A stretch of 54,815 nucleotides of DNA, from assembly GCA_902785935.1 (NCBI GenBank), contig CADAAN010000008.1, positions 1 to 54,815 on the forward strand, written 5' to 3'. The first letter of the stretch is position 1. Each line of letters begins with the position of its first letter. The stretch is from an uncultured Pseudomonadota bacterium (GTDB taxonomy: Bacteria > Pseudomonadota > Alphaproteobacteria > RF32 > CAG-239). Under the pieces are notes generated by a model. That model ran no database searches and was not told the origin of the DNA. It saw only the letters and a program-made list of their open reading frames with translations. Of this stretch, positions 12,502-53,690 are shown piece after piece. The translations under genes were made by a program, and so were the position numbers.

Positions 12502-13395
12502 TCATCGATACCTGATTTTGACCGAATTGACTTTGCCTGCGACTTCATTCGCCTCATCGATAGTATAGATACGCTTAACGATATGGTTGCCTGAGGCTAA
12601 ATCATCAAGTGAAGCATATGTTTTACCACCTGCCTTTATCTGCCCGTTTTCATCTATGCTGTATGAGATGATTCTCGGGGTACCTGACAAACCCGTAAAA
12701 GAATTACCACACTTCTTATCTGTCGGGCAATAAATGGTATTCAGTGCGCCATACTTAAAAGCGTCGGGGCTAATTCCTGTATAAACACCATCTCTTTGGG
12801 CATACTCCAAAATATTCCCATCAGCATCTAAAAGCGAATCGGATATAACAATGCTTGTCAAATTCTCGGCATGCCGAAAGGCATTCACTCCGATTGTGGT
12901 AACAGAGTCAGGAATAACAATACTTTTTATACCTGAGGTATAAAAAGTTTCCGTTCCGATATCTGTTACAGAACTTGGTATCTCTATCGTTTCAAGGGAA
13001 GCTGTCCCCTTAAAAGCACTACCTTCAATTGTCGTAACAGAATCAGGGATATCAACGCTTTTGAGATTAGTCATATTCATAAATGTCCAAGCACCGATAG
13101 ATGTAATACCCGTAGAGTTTTCACTTTTTCCCTCAATAACGGCACTTGTAATTTCGTCGCTTTTAGCATACCATGATGGCCAAATGCCTTCATCACAAAC
13201 CCAATTTGTCATTGTTCCGCTGCCTTTAATGTTTAATGTTTTGCCGTTGTTGATGTTATCATCTGATAAATAAGCCGTGCAATCATCACCGCACTGCCAA
13301 CAATCAACATCTAAAGTTGTACCTTCTGGACAATGAACAGCCGCGTAAGTGTTATAACTTGCAATTATACTTAAAATCAAAATCCATTTTTTCAT
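12502..13395 (-). CDS. BspA-like leucine-rich-repeat protein, copy C
   Basis: A 297-residue secreted protein. A signal peptide (MKKWILILSIIASYNTYA) is followed by a cysteine-containing N-domain (CPEGTTLDVDCWQCGDDC) and a segment LNIKGSGTMTNW. LRR_5 repeats run through about residues 85-205, with the phrases SVDIPDSVTTIEGSAFKG and SIVIPDSVTTIGVNAFRH. It ends in the family box VKRIYTIDEANEVAGKVNSVKIRYR. The start is fixed by GGAG eight bases before 13395; the longer frame to 13446 would run into the leader terminator. Expression should depend on leader C. Probably surface-associated or secreted; ligand unknown. Confidence 0.88.
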   Translation of the reverse strand: MKKWILILSIIASYNTYAAVHCPEGTTLDVDCWQCGDDCTAYLSDDNINNGKTLNIKGSGTMTNWVCDEGIWPSWYAKSDEITSAVIEGKSENSTGITSIGAWTFMNMTNLKSVDIPDSVTTIEGSAFKGTASLETIEIPSSVTDIGTETFYTSGIKSIVIPDSVTTIGVNAFRHAENLTSIVISDSLLDADGNILEYAQRDGVYTGISPDAFKYGALNTIYCPTDKKCGNSFTGLSGTPRIISYSIDENGQIKAGGKTYASLDDLASGNHIVKRIYTIDEANEVAGKVNSVKIRYR

Positions 13396-13418: not shown

Positions 13419-13558
13419 TAAAAAAAATCACTTCAGAAAATTCCAAAGTGGGAGCCGTAAAACTGTCCGAGACAGACTCTCTTATTCGTCGTTAAAATAA
13501 CGCTTATCTCAAGAACTCTCGGAAAGTGTTTTACGAACACCGCAACCATTTTGGTTAC
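13419..13558 (-). ncRNA. Structured 5' leader C with intrinsic terminator
   Basis: This begins with the same GTAACCAAAATGGTTGCGG as the other leaders. The closing helix is GTAAAAC (13528-13534) with GTTTTAC (13457-13463), a perfect 7-bp match whose sequence differs from the other copies. The CTCCT/AGGAG hairpin is degenerate here. The terminator pairs CACTTT with GAAGTG (13429-13450), with a T8-9 tail on the minus strand, and lies 24 bases before the start codon. Confidence 0.8.
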
Positions 13559-20542: not shown

Positions 20543-20730
20543 AAAAATAGCATCGTTTGGTGCACGGGCATAGAAACCCGAGACAGAAACAGTCGATTTA
20601 TTCGACCATTCACCGGCCTCTGCGTTGAGCGGATGTCGGCCGAATAAGACATCTAGCTCAAATAAGCCGAGCCGTTTGTTTCTGTACGGTTTTCTATCAT
20701 CCGCCCGCTTTTTATAAAGTCGGGTTTTTT
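20543..20730 (+). ncRNA. Diverged structured leader E with intrinsic terminator
   Basis: It lies between mutS and the BspA-like gene E. Outer helix: ATAGAAACC (20570-20578) with GGTTTTCTAT (20688-20697, one bulge). A nested helix pairs ACAGAAAC (20583-20590) with GTTTCTGT (20678-20685). Inside are hairpins GTCGA/TCGAC and GGCC-type stems, and the phrase CGAATAAG that the other leaders also have. A U-tailed hairpin CCCG/CGGG (20704-20730) follows. A possible promoter is TTGATT (20515) and TAACAT (20537). Homology to leaders A-D is suggested by architecture, not by overall sequence. Confidence 0.6.
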
Positions 20731-20758
20731 AGTGTTGAATTTTATAGGAGAAAACATT

Positions 20759-21715
20759 ATGAAATATAATAAATATTTTATTTTAATGATGATTTTGACG
20801 GCTTTGCCCTAGCTTGAGTATTATTTTTACGTATCACCGGAGGTCTTAGATGAAGAGGATAATTGTTGCAATGAAGAATGTTCATGCCAATGGTCTTTAA
20901 CAGACGTGACAGATGAAAGCGGAAATACAATTTATATTGATGAAGCTAAAACGATAAAATCTCAACAGCTCAATATTACAGGTAATGGAGCTATGAAAAA
21001 TTATACTAATGAAATTAATACTTTTTTTGACCAAAATGATATAACAAAATCAGCGTATATAAGAACAAAAGCACCGTGGGGAGCTTACAACAATCAAATC
21101 ACTCAAATCAATATTGAAGAAGGTATCACAGATTTAGGAAATAATTCGTTTGTTGGTTTAGACAAGGTGACACAGGCAAAACTTCCGGATACTTTGGAGG
21201 TTATAGGGGCTTCGGCTTTTTATCTTTGCAAAAATCTGACACAAATAAATATTCCGTCTTCGCTGACAGCCATTCAGTATGCCGGATTTTATGCTACAAA
21301 TCTGGAAAATATTGTTGTTCCGAGTACAGTAAGTTATATTGGAGAAGTCGCTTTTGGAGGTAATGGAAATTTAGAGGCAGTAATCATTGAGGGCACGCCA
21401 AGTTTAGATACAAATGTTTTTTCGGGTATCGGAGATGTTGCAGATGAAAGGACATGGGAACTTATCAACACTCATCCGGTTAAAATTTATTGTCCATCAA
21501 ATCTTGATTGTAATAACAAAGGCCAAAGCGCAAATGGCACTATTATTTCTTATCAAAGCTCAAACGATACGGGGCAATTTATTATTGAAGGTAAATTTTA
21601 TAATTCCCTTTCTGATTTGCTCAAAGGCAAATCTATGCCCAAGCGCATCTACACGATTGATGAAGCAAGTAAAGTTGCCGGCAAAAAGAATCGTTTTTCA
21701 ATTAAATATCGGTAG
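20759..21715 (+). pseudogene. BspA-like leucine-rich-repeat gene E with an in-frame TAG at codon 18
   Basis: The gene starts at an ATG at 20759 (SD TAGGAG) with a signal peptide, MKYNKYFILMMILTALP, then a TAG at 20810-20812 in the same frame. Reading continues in frame (LEYYFYVSPEVLDEEDN...) into the body with LRR_5 repeats (INIEEGITDLGNNSFVGL; AKLPDTLEVIGASAFYL). It ends in the family box PKRIYTIDEASKVAGKKNRFSIKYR. An internal ATG at 20906 would give a 269-residue product lacking the signal. Most simply it is a recent nonsense mutation, because the rest is intact. A sequencing error or suppression are alternatives. Confidence 0.75.
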
Positions 21716-28809: not shown

Positions 28810-28838
28810 TTGACTTTTGGCTTTTGTTGTGCGATAAT
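28810..28838 (+). promoter_or_regulatory. Sigma70-like promoter of leader A
   Basis: TTGACT (28810-28815), 17-base spacer, GATAAT (28833-28838). The predicted transcript start at about 28845 is exactly where the conserved GTAACC of the leader begins. Confidence 0.75.
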
Positions 28839-28844
28839 CGAGAT

Positions 28845-29006
28845 GTAACCAAAATGGTTGCGGTGTTTCAAAGACACATTCATCGTATTGCTCCTTATAA
28901 AGAGGAGTTGTTGAGATAAGGCGGTTTCCGCTCGAATAAAACAAACTGTACGATGACAGTTCTTTGAGCTCCTCCACTTTGGATGTTTTTCTAAAGTGAT
29001 TTTTTT
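28845..29006 (+). ncRNA. Structured 5' leader A with intrinsic terminator
   Basis: It begins with GTAACCAAAATGGTTGCGG. Closing helix: TCAAAGA (28868-28874) with TCTTTGA (28961-28967), perfect 7 bp. Inside: CTCCT/AGGAG (28891-28907), GCGG/CCGC (28921-28931), ACTGT/ACAGT. Between the closing helix and the terminator is CTCCTCC (28969-28975), complementary both to GAGGAG at 28902-28907 and partly to the gene's SD (AGGAG). The terminator is CACTTT/AAAGTG (28975-28998) with a T7 tail. The coding start follows about 30 bases later. Confidence 0.82.
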
Positions 29007-29036
29007 ATATAATTTGAATAAAATAGGAGAATAAAT

Positions 29037-29966
29037 ATGAGAAAAAGTCAATTTTTATTTGTATTAATGCTTAGCACTTCTTTTGCCACAATGGCGAGAG
29101 CGGATGATACGTCACTCGCCAATTGCGTCGCCGCGGGAGAAGGTAATTGCGTTCAAATCGGAACTTCCGGTACATACTATGCTTTGAGCGGGCCGGAGGG
29201 CAATAAAACGATGACGATTTACGGCCCGACGGAATCGGGAAGCACTGCCGCCACCGTTCCGCAGGAGGCTTTCTTTTTCTGGGACGATGAAAATGAGATG
29301 TCAACTGTTCCTGCGGGCGTTACATCGCTTAAAACATCCGGCAATGTGAATATCGGAGAGTATGCCTTTAATGGTGCCACGGGTTTGACAAGCGTTGACC
29401 TGACCGGTGTGAAAACAATTGGAAGTGGTGCCTTTTGGGGTGCCACGGGTTTGACAAGCGTTGACCTGACCGGTGTGCAAACAATCGGAGGAGGGGCCTT
29501 TTCTTCTACCGGTCTCTCATCTGTCGTGATAGGCGGCACACCTGAAATTGGAGGATATGCTTTTGACAATTTGCCGAGTGGTGCAAAACTCTATTGCGAA
29601 TCCGAATCCGTTTGCCAAACCATCATCAGTACTTCAGAAAGAGAGGTGAATGATGATTTGATATCTTTGTCGGAATGTGATGATATTGTTATTCAGACAT
29701 TTAGCAAAGGCGATGACGGTGTTTATGTCCTTAAAGATGAAGATGGTGATCCTATTGCTTATTATTCATCAGCAGCCAATATGATGGCAGGCGGGACGCA
29801 AGAAGGCTGCGCCACTCAAGAATCTTGTGCGGCCGTTGTACTTGCGGCAAATAACCCAACGCCGCAACCGACAAAGCCTCAGCGAGCGGATATTCGCATT
29901 TATACCATTGATGAGGCGAATGCCGTTGCGGGCAAGACAAACATTTTTTCGATTCGGTATCGATGA
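29037..29966 (+). CDS. BspA-like leucine-rich-repeat protein, copy A
   Basis: A 309-residue secreted protein with a signal peptide MRKSQFLFVLMLSTSFATMARA. The body has LRR_5 repeats of 22 residues (GATGLTSVDLTGVKTIGSGAF), a cysteine-bearing segment (CESESVCQTI) and a low-complexity part with several cysteines (EGCATQESCAAVV). It ends RADIRIYTIDEANAVAGKTNIFSIRYR. The SD AGGAG is seven bases before the ATG. It is the intact near-copy of the truncated gene at 1-530, in the opposite orientation. It is expected to be regulated through leader A. Role unknown, probably adhesion or surface binding. Confidence 0.9.
   Translation: MRKSQFLFVLMLSTSFATMARADDTSLANCVAAGEGNCVQIGTSGTYYALSGPEGNKTMTIYGPTESGSTAATVPQEAFFFWDDENEMSTVPAGVTSLKTSGNVNIGEYAFNGATGLTSVDLTGVKTIGSGAFWGATGLTSVDLTGVQTIGGGAFSSTGLSSVVIGGTPEIGGYAFDNLPSGAKLYCESESVCQTIISTSEREVNDDLISLSECDDIVIQTFSKGDDGVYVLKDEDGDPIAYYSSAANMMAGGTQEGCATQESCAAVVLAANNPTPQPTKPQRADIRIYTIDEANAVAGKTNIFSIRYR
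29373..29504 (+). repeat. Two tandem 66-bp repeats within the BspA-like gene
   Basis: Units at 29373-29438 and 29439-29504 are nearly identical and each encodes one 22-residue LRR_5 repeat. The first 39 bases of each are the same. The copy at 1-530 carries the same type of units. This is a plausible site of repeat-number change. Confidence 0.8.
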
Positions 29967-52780: not shown

Positions 52781-53473
52781 TTATCGGTATTTGATGCTAA
52801 CCGTATTGGTCTTTTTTGCCACTAGATTGGCTTCTTCAATGGTATAGATACGCTTGACAATATAATTTTCAGTACCGATATCATTGACCGTTTTGTACCA
52901 CCTACCATTGTAATAGTATTCATTGCCATCTTTTTTATAGCTTTTCAAAACATCGATGCTAAGTCCTGACCAGGAAAGAGCCTCTTCGCACATTTTGCGC
53001 TGAGCTTCGGAACAGTAAACTTCCGTCGTATTTTTTGTAAAAACAGGATAAGTGCTAGAACCTCCTATATATGTCACGGAACTTGGAATATTATATGAAG
53101 TTAATTGTGTCCCGCCAAATACGTTCCAACCGATTTGAGTTAAAGTATCAGGCATTTTTATATTTTTTAAGTTCGTTGCGATATAAAAAGCATGTGAGCC
53201 TATGTTTGTGATTCCGTTTTCTATTACGATGTTTTCAATATCTTTATAAAATGATGTGTCTTTTGACCATGGATGAGCATACATATTGCTTGTGTTAAAC
53301 ATTGCTCCTTGTCCTGAAATTATGAGTGTTTTACTTTCATGGTCATACTTCCACTCACAATTTATCCCAAAATTGCCATTATCATCTTTTGGTCCGCAAT
53401 AGCCTGAGGATTGTTCTTGTGCGTTTGCATTAAAATGAATAAAAATGCTTAAAATCAAAACACATTTTTTCAT
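52781..53473 (-). CDS. BspA-like leucine-rich-repeat protein, copy D
   Basis: A 230-residue secreted protein. Signal MKKCVLILSIFIHFNANA, an N-domain with a cysteine pair (YCGPKDDNGNFGINCEW) and LIISGQGAMFNTSN. A short LRR_5 region follows, about 85-150 (IVIENGITNIGSHAFYIATNLKNIKMPDTLTQIG). It ends VKRIYTIEEANLVAKKTNTVSIKYR. The start is supported by GGGAGA upstream. It is the shortest of the five family members. The leader D upstream is almost identical in layout to leaders A-C. Ligand unknown. Confidence 0.88.
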   Translation of the reverse strand: MKKCVLILSIFIHFNANAQEQSSGYCGPKDDNGNFGINCEWKYDHESKTLIISGQGAMFNTSNMYAHPWSKDTSFYKDIENIVIENGITNIGSHAFYIATNLKNIKMPDTLTQIGWNVFGGTQLTSYNIPSSVTYIGGSSTYPVFTKNTTEVYCSEAQRKMCEEALSWSGLSIDVLKSYKKDGNEYYYNGRWYKTVNDIGTENYIVKRIYTIEEANLVAKKTNTVSIKYR

Positions 53474-53530: not shown

Positions 53531-53690
53531 AAAAAAACACTTCAGAAAATATCTAAAGTGGAGGAGCTAAGAAACTGTTTCCGCACAGTCTGCCTTATTC
53601 GTCACTAAAAGCGCTTATCTCAACAACTCCTCTTTGAAAGGAGTTATGCGGAAAATTGTGTTTCTTAGACACCGCAACCATTTTGGTTAC
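53531..53690 (-). ncRNA. Structured 5' leader D with intrinsic terminator
   Basis: It begins with GTAACCAAAATGGTTGCGG. Closing helix TAAGAAAC (53660-53667) with GTTTCTTA (53568-53575), perfect 8 bp. A hairpin AACTCCT/AGGAGTT, a GCGC-type hairpin and ACTGT/ACAGT lie inside. Then AGCTCCTCC and the terminator CACTTT/GAAGTG (53538-53560) with T7 on the minus strand. The start codon is about 60 bases further on. Confidence 0.82.

Follow-up and report, generated by a model that had tools for sequence, protein, structure and literature searches.

The window (the whole stretch of DNA analysed, 54,815 nucleotides) contains five copies of a structured RNA leader, A to E, each lying before a gene with an LRR_5 match. 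Leaders A to D had been placed by the preliminary description and were recovered where it had put them, both in the sequence and with the family-wide covariance model R2 (E 3e-23 to 1e-32).

Leader A occupies positions 28845-29006 (+), as defined by sequence and covariance-model match. Its promoter, TTGACT-17-GATAAT, was located by consensus scan at 28810-28838 (+) with the 17-base spacing previously described, and the placement of the promoter relative to the RNA is repeated in the other copies. All parts of the RNA lie on the same (+) strand. The 5' end forms hairpin P1 (GTAACC/GGTTGC, 28845-28861; pair counts, covariation across genera), followed by hairpin P2 (GTGT/ACAC, 28863-28877; pair counts and compensated stem changes) with segment a1 (28868-28873) in its loop. 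Segment b1 (28880-28886), the partner of b' in the P7 loop, was assigned by covariation and own-pairing energies, and hairpin P4 (28890-28908) by covariation. The 3' strand of P4, GAGGAGT (28902-28908), doubles as the 5' strand of a C4-type closing stem. The C4-like domain thus closed (28902-28974) was delimited by pair counts, alignment to RF02221, the layout of phage P1 and a permutation test of the closing stem. It comprises the closing stem (28902-28909/28967-28974), P5 (28909-28912/28940-28943), P6 (28920-28932), P7 (28946-28959) with b' (28950-28955), and a' (28962-28967), and it carries the conserved loop GAGATAAG...CGAATAA. An intrinsic terminator (28975-29006; hairpin 28975-28998, then a T run) follows, and the gene behind it (29037-29966, +) encodes a secreted BspA-type LRR protein (PF13306, LRR_5).

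Leaders B, C and D lie on the minus strand at 567-723, 13419-13558 and 53531-53690; the covariance-model matches to B and C cover 568-723 and 13420-13558. The gene behind B begins at 530 and continues beyond the window edge (LRR_5 match at 3-233), that behind C spans 12502-13395 and that behind D 52781-53473; in leader C the 5' strand of P4 is lost. In agreement with the preliminary description, all four leaders share the 5' start GTAACCAAAATGGTTGCGG, the phrase TTGA(G/A)ATAAG...CGAATAA and a U-tailed hairpin, followed by SD and ATG, and all four genes matched PF13306 LRR_5 (BspA type).

The diverged fifth copy, leader E (20549-20731, +), was absent from that description. It was detected by matches to RF02221 (20627-20714; 32.9 bits, E 5.9e-4) and to R2 (24.0 bits, E 5.9e-4), and has P2 (GGG/CCC), a closing stem (GCGGATG/CATCCGC) and a terminator; its a1 (ATAGAAA) faces a' TTTTCTAT, and its b1 (ACAGAAACA) faces b' TGTTTCTGT. 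The gene behind it (20759-21715, +; PF13306) carries TAG as its codon 18, in frame and directly after the signal peptide, which could be a nonsense mutation, an assembly error or recoding. A C-terminal motif, KRIYTI(D/E)EA..V.GK.N.FSI(K/R)YR, recurs in secreted LRR proteins, e.g. those encoded at 29037-29966, 12502-13395, 52781-53473 and 20759-21715, and looks like a sorting or anchoring signal. A short open frame in the leader, ATGGTTGCGGTG..., was considered and rejected, neither its sequence nor its end being conserved. The same holds for a peptide-leader attenuator: no conserved short frame was found, and the frames starting from ATGGTTGCGG differ in end and sequence between copies.

Covariation and two exclusive folds

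For structure analysis, 29 copies from the same genome were aligned without structural information, and the top covarying column pairs grouped into helices. In order, these are P1; P2, with a1 in its loop as the partner of a' close to the 3' end; the pairing of b1, located 3' of P2, with b' in the P7 loop; P4; P5; P6; and P7 (CTGT/ACAG). The reciprocal pairings a1:a' and b1:b' define the element and were absent from the preliminary description; they rank among the strongest covarying helices. With this structure, 94% of the cells were paired and two-sided changes occurred in 24 of 41 pairs. Cells with two-sided changes numbered 184, compared with 51±6 in shuffled and at most 34 in slid controls, and so are not a matter of chance. 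The proposal of a structured, terminator-ended RNA under its own selection is upheld. Among 42 diverse copies, in an alignment fitted to the structure, 95% of the cells were paired and two-sided changes were present in 29 of 34 pairs (400 cells versus 105). By inspection, the P2 and P7 stems of distant families show compensatory changes; in other families P2 reads GGAG/CTCC, CGGA/TCCG or GGGG/CCCC. Columns 23 and 107 of alignment A2 (28867 and 28944 in leader A) covary fully (T-A, C-G, T-G), and neither Y23 nor R107 belongs to a neighbouring helix of the model; they may form a tertiary contact, possibly a base triple with G131.

Two partners are available to the 3' strand of P4, the P4 5' strand and the strand CUCCNCC just before the terminator, and both pairings track changes in it (GAGGAG/CUCCUC, GUGGAG/CUCCAC, GCGGAG/CUCCGC, GGGGAG/CUCCCC). 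Own duplexes were more stable than permuted ones both for P4 (z = -9.6) and for the closing stem (z = -11.6), in a permutation that, like the others reported here, ignores relatedness among copies. Two folds result, each nested when taken alone: one with a1:a', b1:b' and P4, the other with P2, P7 and the closing stem. Only one of them can form at a time, since P4 and the closing stem compete for one shared strand. Constrained folding favoured the a1:a'/b1:b' fold in 24 of 29 copies, by a mean of ~6 kcal/mol over the closed C4-like fold; this preference was weighed lightly since the energy model ignores pseudoknots. The terminator was not visibly destroyed in either fold.

The long-range pairings are private to each copy. 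In 61 copies of the genome, a1/b1 bound the a'/b' of the same copy with a mean of -19.1 kcal/mol, as against -6.8 kcal/mol for those of other copies, and the own partner was the best one for 59 of 61 a1/b1 segments and for all 61 a'/b' segments. Such pairing is consistent with action in trans but is not proof of it, because intramolecular folding alone would also select for pairing.

Copies, downstream genes and distribution

A BLASTN search with leader A returned 40 copies from its own genome (1.46 Mb). Covariance model R1 raised this to 65, of which 64 scored above 80 bits and one was weak, i.e. ~1 copy per 22 kb and ~61 more than had been described. An LRR_5 protein is encoded within 1.2 kb downstream on the same strand for 39 of the 65 RNAs and on the opposite strand for none. 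The proposed link to surface LRR genes as a set was thereby upheld, and covariance modelling together with the genome search yielded both very strong covariation and linkage to LRR_5 genes. The linkage between RNA and downstream gene holds at constant distance. The genome encodes ~81 LRR_5 proteins, 42 of them without such a leader according to R1. For the remaining copies, what follows is a prepilin-like gene (GRSMVEMLG...), one of two XRE regulators, a gene for another secreted protein or the end of a contig; contig ends often lie inside the element. Prepilin-like genes (GRSMVEMLGVLAIIGVLSAGA) form a recurring second class of targets in this genome (L008, L015, L247, L249, L253) and occur as targets in distant families as well (L117, L118, L121, L131).

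Within its family the RNA was found in 107 of 152 genomes, representing 14 of 16 genera. Several further families of the class also gave clear matches, most of them in genomes of 0.9-2.3 Mb. Two large-genome families gave R2 matches at E values of 1e-4 to 1e-3, which were not relied on, and the phylum-wide scan gave no match among 397 other genomes. The core pattern occurs in at least 85 stretches of GTDB genomes; among the matches listed, the titles are all uncultured Alphaproteobacteria, Rhodospirillaceae or proteobacteria MAGs, and several come from rumen, caecum or rectum samples. It was absent from the viral contigs searched.

Specificity for BspA-like genes, as implied by the preliminary description, did not hold: in most of the family the gene behind the leader codes for a small XRE-like HTH protein. 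In genera other than that of the window, the next gene nearly always encodes an XRE-like protein of 72-115 aa (Pfam HTH_31, HTH_25, HTH_3) and begins ~22-31 nt past the end of the matched element; as read from the listing, ~74 of 80 further copies precede such mini-XRE genes. Dozens of these single-domain proteins (72-115 aa; L038-L051, L263-L337) are strongly diverged, and nearly each of their genes has its own RNA leader, with several to many per genome. Tandem units occur, also without a gene between them. At one locus (L112, G131:C7 26398-27305), four tandem promoter-RNA-terminator units, ~240 nt apart, precede one mini-XRE gene.

Readings of the element

The leaders are probably domesticated and amplified self-antisense RNAs of the C4/sRNA-Xcc1 type, each dedicated, as attenuator or sRNA, to the one gene behind it. 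The parts, the covariation, the kinship and the private pairing are computational results, and architecture and kinship of the C4/sRNA-Xcc1 type are well supported; read-through as the output mechanism, action in trans and the direction of the effect are what we infer. The transcript would begin with a protective hairpin and then expose the targets a1 (in the P2 loop) and b1, while the closed three-stem domain would carry the complements, b' in the P7 loop and a' just 3' of it. Each RNA molecule is predicted to fold either with a1:a', b1:b' and P4, leaving the closing stem open, or with the closed C4-like domain. As the terminator follows the domain at once, most transcripts should end as an RNA of ~160 nt, with the gene expressed by read-through. 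RNA made from one gene might then act in trans on fresh transcripts of that gene by pairing with their a1/b1, and so shift the balance between the folds and tune read-through or translation. With a1/b1 and a'/b' differing from copy to copy, every gene would have a private address.

Free-standing sRNAs would share many of these parts. The loci would then be promoter-sRNA-terminator units with targets elsewhere, the adjoining gene being expressed by leakage. The own promoter and terminator and the tandem units without an intervening gene fit such an arrangement, and this mode of action has been proposed for C4-like sRNAs of Acinetobacter (PMC5320573). Yet nearly every copy has a same-strand gene at fixed distance, as seen in the strand bias of the LRR_5 genes and in the mini-XRE genes behind the further copies, and every a'/b' finds its best match in the a1/b1 of the same copy. 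Free-standing sRNAs with targets elsewhere are unlikely; the promoter-linked small RNA offered as an alternative in the preliminary description retains some probability.

An orphan riboswitch, whose loop GAGATAAG/CGAATAA would bind a metabolite and thereby switch a cell-surface regulon between termination and read-through, is possible but quite improbable, and it is no longer the simplest reading. It would account for the internal loop between P5 and P6, which is strictly conserved in very diverse copies, for terminator and SD as an expression platform, and for tandem copies, as known from tandem riboswitches. However, a ligand pocket needs no long-range helices that are private, fully variable and yet self-matching. 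The layout moreover equals that of C4, and the target genes have no common metabolic pathway.

Translational control as in P1, where the antisense segment would cover the RBS of the own gene and block translation, is highly doubtful for these leaders. In phage C4 the output is indeed RBS occlusion (PMC5320573). The pattern holds for sRNA-Xcc1 loci, and a weaker form is found in the family outside the window's genus, where own pairing between antisense segment and RBS exceeds permuted pairing (z = -7.4) and the RBS reads GGAGUU or GGAGCU, complementary to AGCUCC. Within the window's genus, by contrast, the RBS is GGAGAA in 32 of 49 cases, own pairing was no better than permuted, and a2/b2 targets at the RBS were not found (z = -0.7). 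Because a2/b2 are not present at the RBS, the classical C4 output is missing there. The commonest longest T run of the terminator is 7 in this genus versus 4 outside it. We infer that the output has shifted from translation to transcription in the window's genus.

A promoter-leader cassette spread among surface genes by recombination, its RNA structure kept only for mRNA stability, would explain the many copies and the contig ends within the element, but mutually exclusive covarying helices with private self-complementarity exceed the needs of stability and make it extremely improbable. Type III toxin-antitoxin systems, which consist of a structured RNA with defining tandem repeats, a leaky terminator and a toxin, were considered because of their layout and rejected: the targets here are LRR proteins, prepilins and HTH proteins, and there are no tandem repeats.

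The RNA is built like the antisense RNAs with which phages such as P1 restrain their antirepressor genes; its copies stand before different genes, mostly for surface proteins, and pair best with themselves. This suggests the conversion of a device of phage immunity to the control of the cell surface. More tentatively, and with somewhat less than even confidence, an antisense RNA of phage immunity may have given gut Alphaproteobacteria a regulatory grammar that spans the genome, in which up to 65 leaders with private, self-complementary addresses tune each surface gene independently by transcription attenuation. In the literature read, no description of transcription attenuation as the output of this kind of RNA was found. 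If private addressing is functional, the genome would offer ~60 orthogonal self-regulating RNA pairs ready-made, and a gut symbiont would have a testable route to vary its surface gene by gene.

Comparison with sRNA-Xcc1 and phage C4 RNA

At Rfam thresholds there was no match in the window, and none of the cis-regulatory families of Rfam (riboswitch, attenuator) matched in the window or in relatives. The earlier statement that the leader was not recognised as any known riboswitch, T-box or attenuator stands as far as Rfam thresholds are concerned; the idea of a new kind of RNA falls short in that the element resembles sRNA-Xcc1 (RF02221) and has the order of parts of phage P1 C4. At relaxed thresholds, RF02221 recurred at the element core in the right register (33.8, 30.0, 26.9, 29.5 and 28.1 bits), with E 0.01-0.7 for sub-threshold matches on diverged copies in small searches. 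The best scores, 33.8 bits (L117) and 32.9 bits (leader E), lie below the gathering cut-off of 53 bits. Over the 87-nt core, cmscan alignments (model positions 1-87) gave the same secondary structure in register.

True sRNA-Xcc1 loci were present in 58 of 398 genomes of the phylum. Upstream of the core annotated by Rfam, they have the same a1 hairpin and b1 (z = -10.9, own versus permuted), and both segments are repeated at the RBS of the next gene (z = -6.0), as in L372 with GGGGCCGAAAACCCCACCAAACAG ... CTGTTTGCGGTTTTCGG ... CCGAAAAGGAGCAAACAGCCATG. Rfam sRNA-Xcc1 corresponds to the 3' domain only, the full element extending ~110 nt further upstream (L354-L383). The genes at these loci include Bro-N, KilA-N, P22_AR_N, Rha and SymE, and sRNA-Xcc1 has been described upstream of symE in Xanthomonas integron cassettes (PMC12444791). 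The window RNA and sRNA-Xcc1 have in common the closing stem, a second stem with an A-rich internal loop (AAUA...GAAUAA), a third stem whose loop contains b', a' ahead of the closing strand, a1/b1 on the 5' side and, behind the RNA, a gene that has an RBS of its own. At sRNA-Xcc1 loci, b1 and the domain are separated by a T-rich hairpin and the target segments recur at the RBS. The window RNA has neither of these; it has a terminator after the domain and other target genes.

The C4 RNA of phages P1 and P7 (RF01695, with c4-a1b1 RF03163) is similar in the succession of promoter, 5' hairpin, a1, b1, three-stem domain with b' and then a', and gene. In the annotation of phage P1 the order is a1, b1, c4 RNA, a2, b2 and then icd/ant; b' lies in the third-stem loop and a' between the third stem and the closing strand. 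P1 likewise has a 5' end hairpin, and it has a segment, GCGGTATTTTTGTG, that recurs in sRNA-Xcc1 loci. P1 C4 differs from the window RNA in a short second stem with a tetraloop, a2/b2 at icd and control of an antirepressor; P1 C4 is also processed by RNase P (PMC5320573). RF01695 and RF03163 gave no match in the window at gathering thresholds or in relatives at a relaxed E-value, while the P1 control matched both. Many copies in one bacterial genome are also known from Acinetobacter baumannii, with 21 C4-like sRNA copies of variable a' (PMC5320573); these are fewer than here and have been presented as sRNAs rather than as leaders to a group of surface-protein genes.

Because scores stay below the thresholds and, in the window's genus, RBS targets are lacking, the element was not filed under RF01695 or RF02221. 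Common descent with the C4/sRNA-Xcc1 antisense RNAs is probable; as R2 finds neither sRNA-Xcc1 nor P1 loci, it rests on the layout together with weak profile scores. Novel features are the copy number, the set of targets, the ending of the RNA in a terminator, and the connection drawn between the two Rfam families. RNAs that Rfam separates, its clan holding C4 and c4-a1b1 with sRNA-Xcc1 outside, are joined into one layout, which offers a possible reason for the position of sRNA-Xcc1 before symE and antirepressor genes.
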